Source: an uncultured Holophagaceae bacterium
GTDB lineage: Bacteria > Acidobacteriota > Holophagae > Holophagales > Holophagaceae
Assembly: GCA_903840385.1 (NCBI GenBank)
Contig: CAIMFT010000041.1
Coordinates: 1-33,495, forward strand
Length of the DNA stretch: 33,495 nucleotides
Direction of reading: 5' to 3'
The notes below the pieces were generated by a model, which saw nothing but the letters and a program-made list of their open reading frames with translations, searched no databases and was not told the DNA's origin. The translations under genes and the position numbers were made by a program. Shown here piece after piece: positions 2,254 through 26,630 of this stretch (position 1 is its first letter; each line of letters starts with the position of its first letter).

Positions 2254-2279
2254 CTCGGTTTTCTAGGAAAACTGAAACC

Positions 2280-2312
2280 GCAGATGGCGCAGATGGCGCA
2301 GATGGCGCAGAT
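2280..2312. repeat. Tandem 9-bp array, unit GCAGATGGC
   Basis: Three perfect copies of GCAGATGGC plus a six-base partial copy lie directly after gcvPB. The unit is the same as the right arm of the repeat between queF and folK when that arm is read on the minus strand (CGCAGATGG register). No clear opposite arm of the same unit follows, so this looks like half of a hairpin or a decayed copy. Confidence 0.85.
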
Positions 2313-5515: not shown

Positions 5516-5551
5516 AATAAAAGAAGCGGGGTCGCCCCCGCTTCTTTTATT
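5516..5551 (-). terminator. Intrinsic terminator of multicopper oxidase 1
   Basis: A perfect 16-bp stem with a TCGC loop follows the oxidase stop at 5579. The A/T-rich ends give a U-run on the minus strand, and the symmetric shape could also work on the plus strand. The core GAAGCGGGG-TCGC-CCCCGCTTC is identical to the terminator at 8187-8210. Confidence 0.85.
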
Positions 5552-5578: not shown

Positions 5579-7903
5579 CTACTTCACCAGCAGGGTGCGC
5601 ATCATGTCGTGCTCTTCGTGCTCGAGGATGTGGCAGTGCCACACGTACTCGTTGCCGCCGGTGCGGGGGCTGGGGGGAACCACGAAGGGGACGGTGGGCA
5701 GGGCGAACTTCATGATGACCGTGGTGACATCACCGGGGTGCATCTTGACGGTCTCCTTCCAGCCGATCTCGGTGGCCTCGGGGCCCCGGGGGGCATCCAG
5801 GAGAACCAGATTGGCCGCCTTGTCTTTGGCGATGGTTCCCGCCGTACCCGCAGGGGCATTGCTGGGCAGACCCACATAAGCATTGGTATCGAACGCCTGT
5901 CGGGAGAGGATCTGCACATTCACCAGGTGGAAGTGGATCGGGTGGGTGTCTCCTGTCAGGTTGGCGATCTGCCAGACCTCGGTCGCTCCTTGCGTGGTCG
6001 TCTCGGTCGCCGCTGACAGGGCCTTGGTCGTCGCGTTGGTGGGATCCCAGTAGGGACGGGAGAAATCCCCGGTGTTGGTCGCAACGTTGGTGCCGAGCAT
6101 CTGGATCAGGCGGCCTTCGGCGTCCGTGACCTCGTTCAGGGTCAGCTGCCGCACCGTGACGCCCTTGCGGGTCGGGATGGGCAGGGGCGCGGTGGTGACG
6201 CTGGCCCAGTTGAGGAACGCGGCAGGGGTGTTGGCCATGGGCCCAGCCAGGGGTGGATCGATCAGTGACACGATCGGCAGGGCCGCCAGGGGCGTGCCGT
6301 TTTTGATATAGAAGGGGGCATCCGCAGGGATGGCGTTGCTGTCGGGTTTGACTTCGAAGCGCATGAGGATTGAGGTGTCTGGACCCGTGCCATCAAGCTT
6401 GTAGTAGTCGTTCAGTGCGTCCCCATTTGGGTAAGGGCCCGGGGCATCGTTGAAGAGGATGTAGCTCTTGCCGCCCATCCCCTTGAAGTCCACCACGATG
6501 TCCAGGCGCTCGCCACCGGCCACGATCAGGCTGCCCCCTGGGGCACCAGGGTTGGGGACGAACCGATTGCCGCCGAGATCTGTCGCAGTAAGGAGCTTCT
6601 TCCCGGAGGGTACGCTCACCGCCTTGGCCAGAAATCCACCCTCGGTGCCGATCACGAGGAAGTCGGGTCCGGGCTTGGTGAAGTCGGGAATGCCACTGCC
6701 GTTGTCCTCGTAGAGCTGCAGGTTGAGGACCCGGGCCTGGCAGGCGTTAAGGATGCGGAAGCGGTAGCGGCGGGGATCCACGGTCGACTTGGGGAAGGCC
6801 GTGCCGTTGACCAGCATGGTGTCGCCGAAGGCTTCGGCCACCACCGAGGTGGGTGGCAGCGGCTGGGTCGCAGCGGGATCCACGGGCCACCGGTTGAGGT
6901 CGTACTCGTAGGGGTACCAGAGGTTGCCGATGCCCACGGCGGAGCCAGGGAAGGGCAGGGCGGGATTCGTGGGGGGATTGCCGTTCTGGAAGATCTTGTC
7001 CTGGAAGACCAGGGGCAGCTCGCGGCCACCCTTCTCGACGAACTCAGGCAACCCGAACAATTTGACGAGGGCCCGCTCAAAGTTGTCCCGAATGATGTAG
7101 GCACTGGCGATGCCGGCATAGGCGTTCAGGCGGGTGATGCCCATGGAGTGGTCGTGGTACCACACGAAGCGGGCGCTCTGGTGATTGGGGTAGTAGTACT
7201 CGGCCTCGTTCTTGGGGACGGTGCCTAAGGCGGTCTCCTTGGGACGCAGCACTTTATTATTGAGGAAGCTGCTCCCCTTGTTCCCGGCGGGATCCCAGAA
7301 AGCGAAGGGGCCGCCGTCACTGATCCAAGGCACCTCCCCCCCGTGGAGGTGGGTGCTGGTGCGGTTCTCCGTCACTGTGCCCACTGGCCCCGCTTTCCCT
7401 TGGGGCAGGATGGTGGTATCGGTCGTGGCTGCGCCCTGGATGGTGGAATCGACAGGGAGGATGTGCTTGCCCGGAAGGTTGTTGCGGAAAGTGACCTGAA
7501 TCGGCTTACCCCGCTCGGCGATGATGATGCCCCCCAGGTGGGACTGGGGCACGATGGCTCCGGGGGCCACCCCCAGCGCCATCGTGGGGTTGTAGCCCCA
7601 GAGGGAGGTGGGGGGCAGGCTCGGGTGGAGCGTATCCTGAAATTGATTGATTTCAATGGTGTAGTGGTCGGCCACGATCGGGCTGCCAGGGAAGGTCCGG
7701 GTCCCATCCGGGAGGGCCACCGTAATCTTCCCTGCGGTCCGCATCTCCTCCATGAACTTGGTCAGGGCTGGGCTGGACTGCCAGGTGGGCACGGGGGTCG
7801 ACGCATTGGGACTCTGGGCCGAGGCGAACTGCCCGGACACCAGCAGGGCTGCGAGGAGGCCCAGGAGGGGGCGGCGGCGGGGGGTGGGTGTAGGAGCGTG
7901 CAT
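5579..7903 (-). CDS. Exported CotA-like multicopper oxidase 1
   Basis: This 774-residue protein starts at ATG 7903 with AAGGAGG nine bases upstream. The N-terminus PTPRRRPLLGLLAALLVSG followed by FASAQ is a signal peptide with a twin-arginine-like RRRPLLG. Copper ligands are visible: HLHGG (H185, H187), WYHDHSMG, HPIHFH and the C-terminal HCHILEHEEHDMM. In the last motif C757, H762 and M767 match the type-1 copper spacing of CotA. It should oxidise phenols, bilirubin-like substrates or metal ions with reduction of O2 to water, outside the cytoplasm. The protein is longer than CotA (about 510 residues), with extra segments around the second domain. Its paralogue lies directly upstream. The true substrate is unknown; Mn(II), Cu(I) or a phenolic are all possible. 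Confidence 0.92.
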   Translation of the reverse strand: MHAPTPTPRRRPLLGLLAALLVSGQFASAQSPNASTPVPTWQSSPALTKFMEEMRTAGKITVALPDGTRTFPGSPIVADHYTIEINQFQDTLHPSLPPTSLWGYNPTMALGVAPGAIVPQSHLGGIIIAERGKPIQVTFRNNLPGKHILPVDSTIQGAATTDTTILPQGKAGPVGTVTENRTSTHLHGGEVPWISDGGPFAFWDPAGNKGSSFLNNKVLRPKETALGTVPKNEAEYYYPNHQSARFVWYHDHSMGITRLNAYAGIASAYIIRDNFERALVKLFGLPEFVEKGGRELPLVFQDKIFQNGNPPTNPALPFPGSAVGIGNLWYPYEYDLNRWPVDPAATQPLPPTSVVAEAFGDTMLVNGTAFPKSTVDPRRYRFRILNACQARVLNLQLYEDNGSGIPDFTKPGPDFLVIGTEGGFLAKAVSVPSGKKLLTATDLGGNRFVPNPGAPGGSLIVAGGERLDIVVDFKGMGGKSYILFNDAPGPYPNGDALNDYYKLDGTGPDTSILMRFEVKPDSNAIPADAPFYIKNGTPLAALPIVSLIDPPLAGPMANTPAAFLNWASVTTAPLPIPTRKGVTVRQLTLNEVTDAEGRLIQMLGTNVATNTGDFSRPYWDPTNATTKALSAATETTTQGATEVWQIANLTGDTHPIHFHLVNVQILSRQAFDTNAYVGLPSNAPAGTAGTIAKDKAANLVLLDAPRGPEATEIGWKETVKMHPGDVTTVIMKFALPTVPFVVPPSPRTGGNEYVWHCHILEHEEHDMMRTLLVK

Positions 7904-8236
7904 GCGAGTCCTCCTTGGACAAGATGCGTTTCCCGGCAAGGGAAGGAGCGGGGCTTCCGGAGGCACCAGCCAAGGGGCCGTTGCCCCAGGTTGTGCCAAT
8001 GAATCAGGTGGTAGATCGAAAAGACTAGGTCCGATCCAAAGTTCAAAAAATGGGGGGAACTACCCATTCCATGCCGGAAAACTACTGCCTCTTTGTACCC
8101 ATTGGTAATCAATGCTTGGGGGCTCTGTAATTTACAAGTGGGCACCCACCTCGGGGGTGCCCCCCCGGTGGCTGCCCATAAAAAATGGAAGCGGGGTCGC
8201 CCCCGCTTCCTTGGTCTGGCTGCTGTCTGGTTGGTG
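7904..8236. other. 333-bp gap between the two oxidase genes
   Basis: This gap holds the oxidase 1 ribosome-binding site (near 7910-7920), a short GC hairpin GGGCACCC/GGGTGCCC (8140-8147 and 8155-8162), and the oxidase 2 terminator. It is visibly richer in A and T than the genes between about 7990 and 8135, as expected for the oxidase 1 promoter. No convincing -35/-10 pair was found. No gene is supported here. Confidence 0.6.
8187..8210 (-). terminator. Intrinsic terminator of multicopper oxidase 2
   Basis: A 10-bp perfect stem, GGAAGCGGGG with loop TCGC, is followed on the minus strand by ATTTTTTATGG. It lies 26 bp past the oxidase 2 stop and shares its core with the terminator of oxidase 1. 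Confidence 0.88.
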
Positions 8237-10477
8237 CTACTTCACCACCAGGGTGCGCATCATGTCGTGCTCTTCGTGCTCGAGGATGTGGCAGTGCCAG
8301 ACGTACTCGTTGCCACCGGTACGGGGGCTGACGGGGACGACGAAGGGCACGGCGGGCAGGGCGAGCTTCATGATGACGGTGGTGATCTCACCGGGGTGCA
8401 TCTTGACGGTCTCCTTCCAGCCGATCTCGGTGGCCTCGGGGCCGCGGGCAGTGCCCATGAGGGTGGGCGTGGCCGCTGCGCCGACGGCGGTGGTGGTGCC
8501 GTAGGTCACCGCATCGAAGCCCTGGCGGGAGAGGATCTGCACGTTGGAGAGGTGGAAGTGGATGGGGTGGGTGTCACCCGTGAGGTTGGCGATCTGCCAG
8601 ACTTCGACCGCGTTGTTGGTGGACACCTCCGTTGGGGTGGAGCCAGTGGAGTCCTTGGGGTCGTAGTAGGGACGGCCGAAGTCACCGGCGGGGGTCTTGA
8701 CGTTGGTGCCGAGCATCTGGATGAGGCGGTTGTAGGCGTCCACAGCCTCGTTCAGGGTCAGCTGGCGCACGGTGACACCGGCGCGGGTGGGGATGGGCAG
8801 GGGCGCGGTGGTGATGTTGGCCCAGTTCAGCTTGTTGGCGGCGGCGGTGGCCACGGGGCCGGCGAGGGGGGGATCGATCAGGGAGTTGGCACTGGCAGCC
8901 AGGGCGGTGGTGGCGGTCAGCTTGTTGGGGGTGTCCTTGGTGATGGTCTTGGCGTCCAGCTTCACTTCGAAGCGCATCATCACGGAGGTGTCGCCGATGA
9001 GGGTGGGGCTGGGGTAGTCGTTCTCAGGAGCCCCATTTGGGTAGGGCCCGGGAGCATTGTTGTAGAGGATGTACTTCTTGCCACCCTTGCCGTTGAGGTC
9101 GAGGATCAGGTCCAGACGCTCAGCGGGGGCCACGATGAGGCTGCCACCGGGGGCGGCGGGGTTCACGTAGCGGCCACCGGCGGCATCCACCAGGGTGGTC
9201 AGGTTGGCCTGGGGCACGCTCACGGGCTTGGCCAGGAAGCCGCCCTCGGTGCCGATCACGAGCCAGGCGGGACCGGGCTTGGTGAAGTCAGGGCTGCCGG
9301 GGCTCAGGACATCTTCTTCGTAGAGGGCGAGGTTCAGCACCCGGGCATTGCAGGCGTTGAGGATGCGCAGACGGTAGCGGCGGGGGTCCACGGTGGCCTT
9401 GGGGAAGGCGGCGCCGTTCACCAGCATGGTGTCGCCGAAGGCTTCGGGCACTACGGACACGCCGGGGGCGGTGCTGGCGTTCCAGAGGGCGGGATCGTAC
9501 TCATAGGGGTACCAGAGGTTGCCGACGCCCACGGCAGAGCCGGGGAAGGGGCGGCTGGGGTCAGGCACGTTGCCGTTCTGGAAGATCTTGTCCTGGAAGA
9601 CCAGGGGCAGCTCGCGGCCACCGTTCTCCACGAAGGCGGGCAACCCGAAGTCACGCACCAGGGAGGCCTCGAAGGCGTCCCGGAGGATGTAGGCAGAGGC
9701 GATCCCGGCGTAGGCGTTGAGGCGGGTGATGCCCATGGCGTGGTCGTGGTACCACATCATGCGGGCGCTCTGGTTGTTGGGGTAGTAGTACTCGGCCTCG
9801 TTGACGGGGATGGTGCCAGCGGCGGCTTCGAGGGGGCGCAGCACGCCGTTGCTCAGGAAGCTCACGCCCTTGCCGCCCTGGGGGTCCCAGAAGTTGAAGG
9901 GGCCGCCGTCACTGATCCAAGGCACCTGTCCACCATGGAGGTGGGTGGCCGTGCGGTTCTGGGCCACGCTGGAGTCAGCGCCCTGGATGCTGGTGTCCAC
10001 CGGCAGGATGTGGGCATTGGGCAGGTGGTTGCGGAAGGTGATCTGGGTGGGGACACCCTTCTGGGCGATGATGATGCCGCCCAGGTGCTTCTGAGGGACG
10101 ACGGCACCCACAGCCACGCCCAGGGCGCGGCTGGGGTTGTAGCCCCAGAGGGTGGTGGGGGGCAGGGACGGATGCAGCTGATCCGTGAACTGGTTGATGT
10201 CGATGGTGTAGTGGGTGGCAGTGGTGGTGGTCTTGCCAGACTTGAAGGTGCGGGTGCCGTCGGTGACGGCCACGGGAATCAGTCCGGGAGCGCGCAGCTC
10301 GGTCATGAACTTGGTCAGGGTGGGGCTGGACTGCCAGGTGGGCACGGGAGGCGCCACGGTGCCCTGGGCCGAGGCGGACTGCCCGGACACCAGGAGGGCC
10401 GTCAGCAACCCCAGGAGGGGGAGGCCGGTCCGGGTGGAGCGGGTGAGGGAGGGGGCGGCAGCGTGCGGGTGGGTCAT
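8237..10477 (-). CDS. Exported CotA-like multicopper oxidase 2
   Basis: This 746-residue paralogue of the neighbouring oxidase is collinear with it over nearly the whole length. It carries THLHGGQVPWISDGGPF, WYHDHAMGITRLNAYAG, HPIHFHLSNVQIL and HCHILEHEEHDMM, with C729, H734 and M739 as type-1 copper ligands. The signal peptide core GLPLLGLLTALLVSG followed by SASAQ is clear. Unlike oxidase 1, no twin-arginine pair precedes it (TRSTRTG), so Sec export is more likely. The ATG at 10477 has only a weak ribosome-binding site (AAAGG about 14 bases upstream). It is transcribed divergently from hslO across a 337-bp region. Laccase-like, bilirubin oxidase-like or metal oxidase activity is possible; the sequence does not settle the substrate. 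Confidence 0.92.
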   Translation of the reverse strand: MTHPHAAAPSLTRSTRTGLPLLGLLTALLVSGQSASAQGTVAPPVPTWQSSPTLTKFMTELRAPGLIPVAVTDGTRTFKSGKTTTTATHYTIDINQFTDQLHPSLPPTTLWGYNPSRALGVAVGAVVPQKHLGGIIIAQKGVPTQITFRNHLPNAHILPVDTSIQGADSSVAQNRTATHLHGGQVPWISDGGPFNFWDPQGGKGVSFLSNGVLRPLEAAAGTIPVNEAEYYYPNNQSARMMWYHDHAMGITRLNAYAGIASAYILRDAFEASLVRDFGLPAFVENGGRELPLVFQDKIFQNGNVPDPSRPFPGSAVGVGNLWYPYEYDPALWNASTAPGVSVVPEAFGDTMLVNGAAFPKATVDPRRYRLRILNACNARVLNLALYEEDVLSPGSPDFTKPGPAWLVIGTEGGFLAKPVSVPQANLTTLVDAAGGRYVNPAAPGGSLIVAPAERLDLILDLNGKGGKKYILYNNAPGPYPNGAPENDYPSPTLIGDTSVMMRFEVKLDAKTITKDTPNKLTATTALAASANSLIDPPLAGPVATAAANKLNWANITTAPLPIPTRAGVTVRQLTLNEAVDAYNRLIQMLGTNVKTPAGDFGRPYYDPKDSTGSTPTEVSTNNAVEVWQIANLTGDTHPIHFHLSNVQILSRQGFDAVTYGTTTAVGAAATPTLMGTARGPEATEIGWKETVKMHPGEITTVIMKLALPAVPFVVPVSPRTGGNEYVWHCHILEHEEHDMMRTLVVK

Positions 10478-12475: not shown

Positions 12476-12511
12476 ACCTTCTACTCTTCCCTTTGGATCG
12501 AATGAAATGAA

Positions 12512-12540
12512 AACCGCAGAGGACGCAGAGGGCGCAGAGG
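12512..12540 (+). repeat. Left arm of the 29-bp inverted repeat around the GxxExxY gene
   Basis: This 29-bp arm is made of CGCAGAGG units with a nine-base period. Its exact reverse complement is at 13009-13037. The match can be extended to about 34 bp with one single-base indel. The arm starts 58 bp before the ATG of the enclosed gene. Confidence 0.93.
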
Positions 12541-12598
12541 GAAAGCCGGCACTGAGGTTTCTTCGACCAGTTGGGGAAACCGCTGGCAAGGCTGCAGC

Positions 12599-13003
12599 AT
12601 GAGACGGGATCTTGACTTCCTCAACGAACTTTCCCGAAGGGTCATCGCAGCGTGTATTGAAGTGCACAAGGAGCTTGGGTCGGGGTTGCTGGAGTCAGCC
12701 TATGAAGTCTGCCTAGCCCGGGAGTTGTCACTCGCCGGTATTCCCTTCAGGCGTCAGGTGTCGGTGCCTGTGACCTACAAGGGCGAATTTATGGAGGCGG
12801 GTTACCGAATTGATCTACTGGTGGACGAATGCCTGATTGTTGAACTCAAGGCCGCCAAGTCTCCTCCGGGCATCCTGCGGGCACAACTGCTCACCTATCT
12901 GAAGCTGATGAATCTCCCCCTCGGACTTGGGGTGAGCTTTGGCAATGTTCGTCTAATCGATGGAGTCACCCGAGTGGTGAATGGCATCCCGGAACTCATC
13001 TAA
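12599..13003 (+). CDS. GxxExxY family protein with PD-(D/E)XK-like motif
   Basis: This 134-residue protein carries the defining motif GLLESAY (G29, E32, Y35). A PD-(D/E)XK nuclease-like signature follows: RIDLLV with D72, then VELKA with E82 and K84, and a conserved glutamine Q96 in AQLLTYLK. Nuclease activity has to my knowledge not been shown for this family and is an inference from the fold signature. The gene lies between 29-bp perfect inverted repeats, 58 bp from the left arm and 5 bp from the right arm. Its codons are less GC-rich at third positions than those of its neighbours (tca, gaa, att, tct), a sign of separate origin. The ATG at 12599 has only a weak AAGG about eight bases upstream. 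Confidence 0.88.
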   Translation: MRRDLDFLNELSRRVIAACIEVHKELGSGLLESAYEVCLARELSLAGIPFRRQVSVPVTYKGEFMEAGYRIDLLVDECLIVELKAAKSPPGILRAQLLTYLKLMNLPLGLGVSFGNVRLIDGVTRVVNGIPELI

Positions 13004-13008
13004 GCTTT

Positions 13009-13037
13009 CCTCTGCGCCCTCTGCGTCCTCTGCGGTT
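13009..13037 (-). repeat. Right arm of the 29-bp inverted repeat around the GxxExxY gene
   Basis: This is the exact reverse complement of 12512-12540. It begins 5 bp after the GxxExxY stop codon and ends 18 bp before the queF ATG, so it also forms the queF leader. Confidence 0.93.
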
Positions 13038-13055
13038 AATTTTTCTGGTGATCTA

Positions 13056-13469
13056 ATGTCCACAAAGCGTTCTCCCAAGGCCTCTCTGCCCAATCCGCTG
13101 CCGCAGTTTGTGGTGACGCGGCCCACGGGCCATCTGGACACTTTTGAGAGTCCCCGACCCGGGCGGGCGTTCACGGTCACCTTCGAGTCGGAGGAGTTCA
13201 CCTGCCTCTGCCCCCTCACGGGTCAGCCCGACTTCGCCAAGCTGCGCATCACCTACCAGCCGGACCGGCTCTGCGTAGAGTCCAAGTCCCTGAAGCTCTA
13301 CCTCTGGACCTTCCGGGACCAGGGCGCCTTCCACGAGGACGTCACCAACCGCATCCTCGACGACCTGGTGACGGCCCTCCAGCCCCGGTGGATCGAGGTG
13401 GCAGGCGACTTCCTCATCCGCGGCGGCATCCGGACGCTGGTGGTGGCAGAACACGGCAAAAAACAATGA
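13056..13469 (+). CDS. queF: NADPH-dependent 7-cyano-7-deazaguanine reductase
   Basis: This 137-residue protein fits the short, unimodular QueF type. The catalytic cysteine is C52 in FTCLCPLTGQPDF, with the nearby acid D59. The QueF signature ESKSLKLYLWTF (75-86) and FHED (92-95) are present. It reduces preQ0 to preQ1 in the cytoplasm, a step toward queuosine in tRNA. The ATG at 13056 has a weak GGTGA six bases upstream; an upstream in-frame extension runs through the repeat arm and is not used. No preQ1 riboswitch was recognised in the leader, which consists mostly of the repeat. Other queuosine genes are not in the window. Confidence 0.94.
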   Translation: MSTKRSPKASLPNPLPQFVVTRPTGHLDTFESPRPGRAFTVTFESEEFTCLCPLTGQPDFAKLRITYQPDRLCVESKSLKLYLWTFRDQGAFHEDVTNRILDDLVTALQPRWIEVAGDFLIRGGIRTLVVAEHGKKQ

Positions 13470-13471
13470 AT

Positions 13472-13554
13472 CCACAGATTTCACAGATTCCACAGATGGC
13501 CAAGATGCGATGCGCGGCTTTTCATCTGCGTCCATCTGCGCCATCTGCGATTTC
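13472..13554. repeat. Imperfect hairpin of nine-base repeats between queF and folK
   Basis: The left arm (13472-13500) has three CACAGAT-type units with nine-base spacing. The right arm (13522-13554), read on the minus strand, has three CGCAGATGG-type units in the same register. CAGAT is conserved in every unit while the flanking bases differ between arms. The right arm ends three bases before the folK ATG. Confidence 0.85.
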
Positions 13555-13557
13555 AAA

Positions 13558-14028
13558 ATGAAGGCCGTCGTCGCGCTGGGCTCCAACCTCGGCGACCGCC
13601 GGGCGCACCTGGTGGCGGGGCTGGCGGCCCTGCGCACGCTGGGGGCGGTGGTGCCCTCGCCTCTGGTGATGGAGACGCCGGACGAGTCGGGGATGGGTCC
13701 CGCTTACCTCAACACCGTGGCCCTGGTGGTCACCGAGGAGGCCGATCCCTGCCGCTTCCTGGAGGCCCTCCTGCGCCTGGAGCTGCTGGCCGGCCGGGAC
13801 CGCGGCACCGGGAAGAACGCCCCCCGCACCCTGGATCTGGACCTCATCACCACGGACGGCGACCCCGGCACCTGGACCTGGCCCACCCCGGCGGACCTGC
13901 TGCGTCTGGGCCCTGAGCTCAGCCTCGAGCTACCCCACCCCCGCGCCTTCCGCCGCCCCTTCGTCCTGGAACCCTGGCGCGCCCTCTCCGACCCCGGCGA
14001 GTGTGGTGGGGTCATTCCGGGAAAATAG
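13558..14028 (+). CDS. folK: 6-hydroxymethyl-7,8-dihydropterin pyrophosphokinase
   Basis: This 156-residue protein is normal for HPPK. Motifs are ALGSNLGD at the start (6-13), YLNTVALV, the ATP/pterin-binding RDRGTGKNAPRTLDLDLI and LPHPRAFRRPFVLEPW at the end. It transfers pyrophosphate from ATP to the pterin in folate synthesis. The ATG at 13558 is fixed by the ALGSN block, which normally begins within a few residues of the start. No Shine-Dalgarno sequence is visible, because the upstream bases belong to the repeat hairpin. Translation may depend on the queF transcript or be leaderless. The gene converges with the S9 peptidase gene. Confidence 0.93.
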   Translation: MKAVVALGSNLGDRRAHLVAGLAALRTLGAVVPSPLVMETPDESGMGPAYLNTVALVVTEEADPCRFLEALLRLELLAGRDRGTGKNAPRTLDLDLITTDGDPGTWTWPTPADLLRLGPELSLELPHPRAFRRPFVLEPWRALSDPGECGGVIPGK

Positions 14029-14035
14029 AAAAAAA

Positions 14036-14163
14036 GATCCAACGCGAAGACGCGAAGACGCTAAGAAAAGCGAAGAAGAAAAGGGAAAGGGTCTTTTCGG
14101 GCCTTCTGTTTCCCTTAGCTTTTCTTCGTCTCTTTTTGCGTCTTCGCGTCTTGGCGTTGGATC
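14036..14163. repeat. Long inverted repeat between folK and the S9 peptidase gene
   Basis: The outer arms, 14036-14061 and 14138-14163, are inverted copies matching at 25 of 26 positions and built from CGCGAAGA/CGCCAAGA units. Weaker pairing of A/G-rich left and C/T-rich right sequence continues inward to about 14090 and 14104. The element fills almost all of the convergent junction and could also end transcription from both sides. Confidence 0.9.
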
Positions 14164-14175
14164 AGTAAATCTTTA

Positions 14176-24549: not shown

Positions 24550-24575
24550 AAGAGTACGCCACACGGAAACTGATT

Positions 24576-24654
24576 ACCGCCAAGACGCCAAGAGCGCCAA
24601 GAAAGGCATAGCCATTTGTTCGGAGTTGCTTGGCGTCCTTGGCGCCTTGGCGGT
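24576..24654. repeat. Inverted repeat of CGCCAAG units between two thioesterase genes
   Basis: The left arm (24576-24601) and right arm (24629-24654) are 26-bp inverted copies agreeing at 23 positions, with a 27-bp loop. Each arm has three CGCCAAG units spaced eight or nine bases apart. It lies in a convergent junction, like the element at 14036-14163, and uses a closely related unit. Confidence 0.9.
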
Positions 24655-24694
24655 GAGCCTTTTCTTTCCACCAAGATGACGATCCACCTGGACC

Positions 24695-26484: not shown

Positions 26485-26630
26485 GTTGGCTGTTGGCTGT
26501 CGGCTGTCAGCTATCAGCTGTCATCTAAAGATTGGGCGCCGACCCACTGGAAAGGGCCGACGCCCACCGATGTTGGCTTTGGCTGATAGCCAATAGCCAA
26601 TAGCCGACAGCCGATAGCCGATAGCTATCG
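26485..26630. repeat. Inverted heptad repeat element
   Basis: The left arm (26485-26526) has six contiguous 7-base units following GTYRGCT (GTTGGCT, GTTGGCT, GTCGGCT, GTCAGCT, ATCAGCT, GTCATCT). The right arm (26587-26628) has six inverted units following YAGCCRA (TAGCCAA, TAGCCAA, TAGCCGA, CAGCCGA, TAGCCGA, TAGCTAT). Between the arms is a short GC-rich hairpin around GGGCGCCGAC and GGGCCGACGCCC. The right arm runs into the MerR gene and supplies its TAG stop. Confidence 0.9.

Follow-up and report, generated by a model that had tools for sequence, protein, structure and literature searches.

A GxxExxY nuclease-family gene between inverted arrays of 7-nt sites as a possible mobile cassette in Holophagaceae and beyond

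In a 33,495-nt stretch of DNA from an uncultured Holophagaceae bacterium (the whole of which is referred to below as the window), one gene is enclosed by perfect inverted repeats, and noncoding hairpins occur elsewhere in the same stretch. The original prediction read this arrangement as a cassette, the protein of which may act on the hairpin to move, copy, or maintain the repeats. Do the gene and its arms belong together, and what might the protein do with them?

A GxxExxY gene enclosed by inverted arrays

The left arm (positions 12512 to 12540, plus strand) is composed of three CGCAGAG cores with 2-nt linkers and AAC ahead of them, and the right arm (13009 to 13037, minus strand) is its reverse complement. 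As predicted, the two arms are exact reverse complements over 29 bp, and an extension to 32 bp brings in one mismatch; they form part of the longest inverted pair in the repeat listing of the window (I1). Between them, within the interval from 12512 to 13037, lies the GxxExxY gene (12599 to 13003, plus strand), which encodes 134 amino acids. Its neighbours are Hsp33 and DUF374 genes upstream and QueF- and HPPK-type genes downstream, and no CRISPR genes were found among these four. The third-position GC of the gene, anticipated to be lower than that of its neighbours, is indeed 0.63 versus 0.90 for DUF374, 0.86 for QueF, and 0.91 for HPPK.

Arms were scored as the best gapless inverted repeat between the 250-bp flanks of a gene, and the window locus yielded a value of 29.5. 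After duplicate proteins had been dropped within each set, and with six loci of short flanks removed beforehand, a score of at least 14 was obtained for 45 of 46 loci of the same genus, 65 of 77 loci from other genera of the phylum, and 52 of 75 loci from many phyla, most of the loci counted being best-scoring hits and no random sample. Overall, 162 of 198 loci reached this threshold versus 7 of 792 in-locus control intervals. Since so few controls attain even a score of 14, chance arms are excluded at the window locus. Repeats of such a style are common in the source genome, and one might suppose that intergenic repeats near an unrelated gene match by accident; the counts at loci and in control intervals refute this supposition, which we regard as extremely improbable.

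Within the genus, 34 of 35 loci also reached a score of 16, the exception being L051. In a first scoring of the many-phyla sample, which was drawn from one subfamily only (A2), 51 of 73 loci reached 14 (7 of 80 had been passed over for short flanks), with 1.1% of 365 in-locus controls. Among six near relatives, where loci were taken regardless of score, 13 of 18 reached 14; two of these 13 had already been scored, and one of the five that fell short runs into a contig end. Arms were found at three archaeal loci (L116, L138, and L143) and none at a fourth (L073). These data establish the architecture and its generality. The expectation of a recurring cassette was thus borne out, and the outcome that had been named as its refutation, most GxxExxY genes lacking arms across many genomes, is not the case, either in the pooled set or among the near relatives. 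Genes without arms were seen at L316, L321, and L051, the first two of which come from two related genomes and encode nearly the same protein, a member of a divergent subfamily. At L118 (3116 to 5241), CGCAAAG-type arrays lie inside an apparent single long restriction-modification-like reading frame, seemingly in frame because 9 nt equals three codons.

Six GxxExxY genes were found in the source genome, all six in inverted arms of short tandem units, and the units all differ (CACAGAT, CGCTAAGA-like, CCCCTTCAT, CGCCAAG, AACAGGATT, and CGCAGAG for the window cassette). Outside that cassette, the exact tandem CGCAGAGGN unit is not found in this genome, and a family of hairpins of one exact sequence was therefore rejected: the hairpins have a common architecture, and each style has its own sequence. 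The claim that the arms are in the same style as the noncoding hairpins of the window stood in part. It holds for the common architecture, and the window arm has 91% matches over 34 to 35 bases on contigs C28 and C80, but the window hairpins use other units and the exact tandem unit is confined to the cassette.

The anatomy of the arms was analyzed at 126 loci with C[AG]C.[AG]A[GTA] cores. An arm usually consists of three 7-nt cores with 1- to 3-nt linkers: left arms carry three units at 84 loci, two at 37, and more at 5, and the unit spacing is 9 nt in 113 cases, 8 nt in 71, and 10 nt in 24. Agreement between left and right arms is 94 to 97% at variable core positions (77% at position 4) versus 65% in the linkers; because arms were selected by their matching score, the absolute identities are inflated, whereas the contrast between cores and linkers is not. 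This contrast fits recognition of the cores better than mere stem pairing. At L047, L053, L054, and other loci, GxxExxY genes start and stop within their own arms, which thus encode the protein ends there.

The GxxExxY protein and the sequence of its arms

The window protein matched the TIGR04256 profile at 123.4 bits (curated cutoff, 35) and the PF13366 (PDDEXK_3) profile at 121.4 (cutoff, 22). Only GxxExxY and PDDEXK_3 models of NCBIfam and Pfam match it, and no transposase family of these collections does so. The PD-(D/E)XK-like signature first noted in the window protein alone (D72, E82, and K84) proved invariant when 27 proteins of the genus were aligned, as did G29, E32, Y35, Q96, and Y100, and K84 is nearly invariant in a second alignment of 48 proteins. 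A structure model of the window protein (pLDDT, 93.3) has nuclease-like structural matches (4ic1 and 4r5q), which gives a predicted fold like that of Cas4/lambda exonuclease, and the D...ExK triad within this modelled PD-(D/E)XK fold marks the protein as a predicted nuclease. We take 4ic1 to be a Cas4, the hallmark of which is a four-cysteine iron-sulphur cluster. No cysteine occurs in the invariant or nearly invariant columns of alignments A1 or A5, and the window protein differs from Cas4 and RecB-type nucleases (4ic1 and 4r5q) in its 134 amino acids and in the lack of an invariant cysteine. A search by sequence for relatives of solved structure returned one doubtful match only (E, 0.039). 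The dN/dS values were 0.02 to 0.17 in 19 of 19 pairs of GxxExxY genes, and the protein is under purifying selection. Two other identities were rejected. The window protein has no PADLOC match that would make it a known defence protein, and a phage gene is contradicted by IMG/VR, in which two subfamily alignments gave relatives in 0 of 78 and 1 of 50 pattern matches.

Arm sequence was found to co-vary with protein subfamily. As compared across 162 loci, protein identity and arm 5-mer similarity gave a Mantel r of 0.43 versus a maximum of 0.09 in 2,000 permutations; when arms were permuted within genomes only, the mean was 0.25 and the maximum 0.35. A restricted test, in which domain-overlapping arms, pairs above 60% identity, and same-genome pairs were left out, gave an r of 0.37 versus a maximum of 0.10 (1,000 permutations, 136 loci). 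Arms were also sorted into five types, with 158 of 165 loci typed. On a protein tree of 155 rows, the arm type changes 14 times versus a mean of 43.9 and a minimum of 40 in 300 shuffles, and within-genome shuffles gave 31 changes with a minimum of 22. In particular, LGPGLLESAYE proteins go with C[AG]C[ACG][AG]AG cores, GFLEAVYADAL-type proteins with CGCGAAT cores, and GF.EAVYQNALALEM proteins with AACAGGATT cores. Passive sharing of a style by the host was rejected by the within-genome permutations, both in the Mantel test and on the tree. The co-variation suggests that we are likely dealing with a compact mobile element, the ends of which are recognised by its own enzyme.

A second protein family occurs in similar arms, namely, TIGR02436, which we take to be the four-helix-bundle ORF family of 23S rRNA intervening sequences. 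Its genes are present in 14 of 47 genus genomes, with 18 matches in all. Period-7 arms scoring at least 14 were found at 11 of the 12 loci examined; the twelfth, in the source genome near a contig end, scored 10.5 with arrays visible. Inverted period-7 arrays around TIGR02436 genes were seen at L150 to L158, L160, L164, and L165, the unit differing by protein type. Comparable arms around genes that encode no nuclease indicated that such architecture needs no nuclease. It might be imagined that arms are spread by replication or repair enzymes of the host, or by an unseen transposase, with GxxExxY and TIGR02436 genes riding in the loops. The two unrelated protein families in such arms favour this idea, as does the persistence of hairpins in G030 and G023, where no matching gene was found. 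Mere passengers, on the other hand, would not make the arms track the protein clade across genera, across phyla, and within single genomes. Nor did a small search for other cargo lend support: at 11 loci, it returned a second GxxExxY gene twice, matched genes earlier excluded for short flanks twice, and other or no reading frames seven times. We therefore consider a passive ride distinctly unlikely.

Noncoding hairpins and cassette sites in related genomes

Four noncoding hairpins were located in the window. The one at 13466 to 13560, in CACAGAT/CGCAGAT style, is absent at the same site in G027 and present in G031; AATGAA on both of its sides was rejected as a target-site duplication, since the needs of stop and start explain it too. 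Another, at 14036 to 14163 (about 14029 to 14170), is in GCGAAGAC style, and at its site two other styles occur in G027 and G023 and only outer tips in G003. A known RNA family was rejected for the palindrome at 14039 to 14160, on which only miRNA models below gathering scores were returned. The hairpin at 24566 to 24664 has the CGCCAAG style, which is also found in the arms of the L004 cassette in the source genome, and that at 26488 to 26619, with a period of 7 (GCTGTCG/GCTATCA), shares its style with the arms around L155, a TIGR02436 gene in the same genome. The loop of the latter is inverted in G027 (L178), as expected from recombination between arms. A lone AACCGCAGATGGCGCAGATGGCGCAGATGGCGCAGAT array (2276 to 2312, plus strand) has no clear partner. 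Apart from these elements, the window carries two adjacent ORFs on the minus strand (5579 to 7999 and 8237 to 10477; 806 and 746 amino acids), presumably multicopper-oxidase-like, which share DNA blocks 75 to 94% identical at 2.5- to 2.7-kb spacing and, judging by their sequence, represent a tandem duplication. GC-rich, terminator-like palindromes (AAGCGGGGTCGCCCCCGCTT) adjoin the duplicated genes at 5520 to 5551 and 8181 to 8212.

In 478 kb of the source genome, 45 periodic inverted repeats were detected versus 7 in a block shuffle. Judged by eye, 14 of the 45 are in style: two enclose a GxxExxY gene, one a 286-bp noncoding loop, and 11 have loops of 12 to 97 bases. Among the 31 genus genomes at least 90% complete, the density of arm units, measured with a pattern that also matches coding DNA, correlated with gene number (Spearman, 0.51; p, 0.003; kinship ignored). 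The four gene-free genomes among them have 19 to 26 arm units per Mb, whereas the median of the others is 41; some genomes with genes are nevertheless as low or lower, G035 with its three genes lying below the gene-free ones. Six related genomes have 6 to 26 pattern matches to CCCCTTCAT apiece, and two others have a single one. G030 and G023 contain 23 and 6 matches to hairpins of this type, and no L003-type gene was found among the 5 GxxExxY genes of the G030 draft or the 8 of the G023 draft, which argues against a strict dependence of hairpins on a matching gene. In the case of the AACAGGATT cassette type, almost no exact hairpin copies exist (3 matches in 47 genomes). A noncoding element with cassette-like arms (L339, 1035 to 1376) recurs at 83 to 95% identity over 174 to 254 bases in G000, G031, and G027. 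An element of this kind, about 300 bp long with AG-type arms, was seen at that position and at L170 (131 to 384), L178, L298, and L372, and is possibly a nonautonomous element.

The window site was then compared between species. In G027, the flanks are 93 to 95% identical to those of the window, and the cassette is present with a nearly identical gene; 498 of 500 cassette bases are identical versus about 95% in the flanks. Fast spread as the cause of this near-identity was not upheld: a similar dip in divergence occurs at L003 and none at L005. The site is gene-free in G031, G023, and G003. A noncoding CACAAAG-style hairpin stands in place of the cassette in the first two, a part of which is retained in G003, and in G023 the outer tip of a CGCAGAG arm is still there. 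A GxxExxY gene occupies the site in six species (G027, G008, G004, G030, G010, and G018), and the cassettes of G008, G030, G010, and G018 lie beside QueF with related arm units, CRC[AGT]GAG. The proposed check for empty sites in close relatives thus had a divided outcome, with three relatives lacking the gene and six other species carrying one there. The other refuting outcome that had been named, gene and arms at the same place in all close relatives, is therefore not the case either. Several members of the genus have a gene between DUF374 and QueF that is presumably QueC-like; at L020, L023, L028, L036, and L039, it is found where the window has its cassette (12476 to 13056).

Identity to the window for the nuclease and for QueF, respectively, is 52% and 88% in G030, 54% and 82% in G010, 53% and 80% in G018, and 71% and 82% in G008. 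The nuclease identities are out of step with those of QueF while dN/dS is low, which points to exchange of the cassette or gene at one site over plain descent. A homing-type process can be envisaged, in which the nuclease cuts targets of its own arm style, either gene-free hairpins or cassettes with a different gene, and repair copies its gene into the loop. A cassette is, after all, a hairpin with a gene in its loop; in G008, G030, G010, and G018, CRC[AGT]GAG arms at the window site enclose nucleases 52 to 71% identical, that is, another gene at the same site and in the same style, and the arm tip at the gene-free site of G023 fits as well. Yet the gene-free L005 sites have a 19-bp intergenic stretch without any hairpin, and the gene-free window site of G031 has another hairpin style, so that arms and gene also come or go together. 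We consider homing very unlikely.

G031 carries the L005 cassette, whereas G022, G003, G023, and G030 have a 19-bp intergenic stretch in its place; the site was not found in G027. Both flanks are common between this cassette and those at L222 (G026) and L226 (G060), and the four empty sites may therefore be losses. Whole cassettes are thus present or absent at orthologous sites, and one type, the CACGGAG cassette, was found at two unrelated sites. The flanks of the 76 most similar cassette pairs were also compared, and six pairs repeating the same loci were dropped. In the remaining 70 distinct pairs, both flanks are common in 42, neither in 22, and one in 6, which indicated that much of the cassette inheritance is vertical. 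The pair L042 and L052, from different sites, is the closer one at 83.3%, as L042 and L045 reach 80.8% although they occupy the same site. No target-site duplication had been seen at the window cassette, and across 146 cassettes there is no excess either, the mean longest direct repeat being 3.64 versus 3.57 when shuffled. At L289 (G031, contig C305), a short deletion interrupts an L003-type gene, with the arms intact.

Given this inheritance, could the protein be a resident enzyme of the host, vertically kept, which trims or resolves DNA or RNA hairpins in replication or at mRNA ends, the arms serving autoregulation and dispersal being incidental? The strong purifying selection agrees with such a role, as do the 42 of 70 similar pairs that share a site and the several genes that start or stop inside their arms, as would suit expression control. 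Nevertheless, species of a single genus have anywhere between 0 and 10 GxxExxY genes, a cassette is either wholly there or wholly missing, and six cassettes in one genome have six arm sequences. A resident enzyme therefore appears unlikely to us.

Known systems and a proposed mode of action

The mobile-element reading was compared with systems already described. The REPIN-RAYT system, in the accessible part of PMC3116915, is made up of hairpins, scattered between genes, in which two sites stand in inverted orientation, and of a dedicated protein gene that has those sites on its flanks, with site types that co-vary with protein types and several types per genome; REPINs are proposed there to be acted on in trans by RAYTs. 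Likewise, the GxxExxY gene is flanked by its repeated site (162 of 198 loci), and dispersed intergenic hairpins of two inverted sites exist. The differences lie in the protein, which is a tyrosine (HUH) transposase in REPIN-RAYT and a member of a PD-(D/E)XK nuclease family in the window cassette, in the arms with their three tandem 7-nt cores and 1- to 3-nt linkers, and in the presence or absence of the gene and both arms as a whole cassette. The 23S rRNA intervening sequences, which the accessible text of PMC4990558 describes as selfish and perhaps once mobile, likewise contain a small ORF flanked by stem-forming terminal inverted repeats. These lie in a 23S rRNA helix and carry an S23 four-helix-bundle ORF, whereas the window element lies between the DUF374 and QueF protein genes, its ORF belongs to the unrelated GxxExxY nuclease family, and its arms are tandem 7-nt cores with linkers.

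Inverted ends, coding and noncoding versions, and an intergenic position are common to MITEs, insertion sequences, and the cassettes, but the cassettes have no transposase match and no excess of target-site duplications, and their ends differ in sequence between elements while the architecture stays constant. The TAACTGA repeats of Beggiatoaceae are tandem heptamers as well, intergenic and patchy; as far as the accessible part of PMC4679880 goes, they form direct arrays of a single sequence, one inverted set being reported, and do not frame a gene as inverted arms. In the open-licence literature, GxxExxY has passing mentions only, and no described function was found; in its searchable text, TIGR04256, TIGR02436, and PDDEXK_3 were not found while PF13366 is named, and the arm strings were not found except in fish eDNA work. 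The accessible text on related systems gave no report of an association of GxxExxY genes with repeat arms.

Taken together, we give an even chance to the following explanation. The interval from 12512 to 13037 represents a single copy of a widespread type of cassette, whose GxxExxY gene, for a predicted minimal Cas4-like PD-(D/E)XK nuclease, is framed by inverted arrays, each with three 7-nt sites that vary in step with the protein. By recognising these sites, the nuclease would likely move or copy both the cassette and the hairpins without a gene that are its likely derivatives. We infer that the GxxExxY protein binds the 7-nt cores of both arms as DNA, probably single stranded or as an extruded hairpin, and that the predicted nuclease may cut at the cassette edges. 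When repair or replication then processes the break, the outcome would be either an additional copy or the loss of one. On this view, hairpins without a gene would be cassettes that have become shorter and that the nuclease of their own style serves in trans, by analogy with REPIN-RAYT. The system would in kind be REPIN-RAYT-like, built on an unrelated nuclease.

A broader proposal, to which we assign somewhat less than an even chance, is that GxxExxY nucleases and their arms constitute a new class of mobile DNA across bacteria and archaea, in which each subfamily reads its own 7-nt core, three times per inverted end, and spreads its gene as well as hairpins that lack one. A four-helix-bundle protein would have come by such a design separately, and the enigmatic 23S rRNA intervening sequences would then belong to the class too. 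A link of the GxxExxY family to its arms would account for a class of intergenic hairpins with 8- to 10-nt tandem units, offer the REPIN problem a second answer that is not HUH based, and bring the long-standing puzzle of the 23S rRNA intervening sequences together with dispersed elements. The co-variation of arms and proteins is a ready data set for protein-DNA recognition, and the arm code, readable from sequence, would give the widespread GxxExxY family a partner, a testable substrate, and a role.
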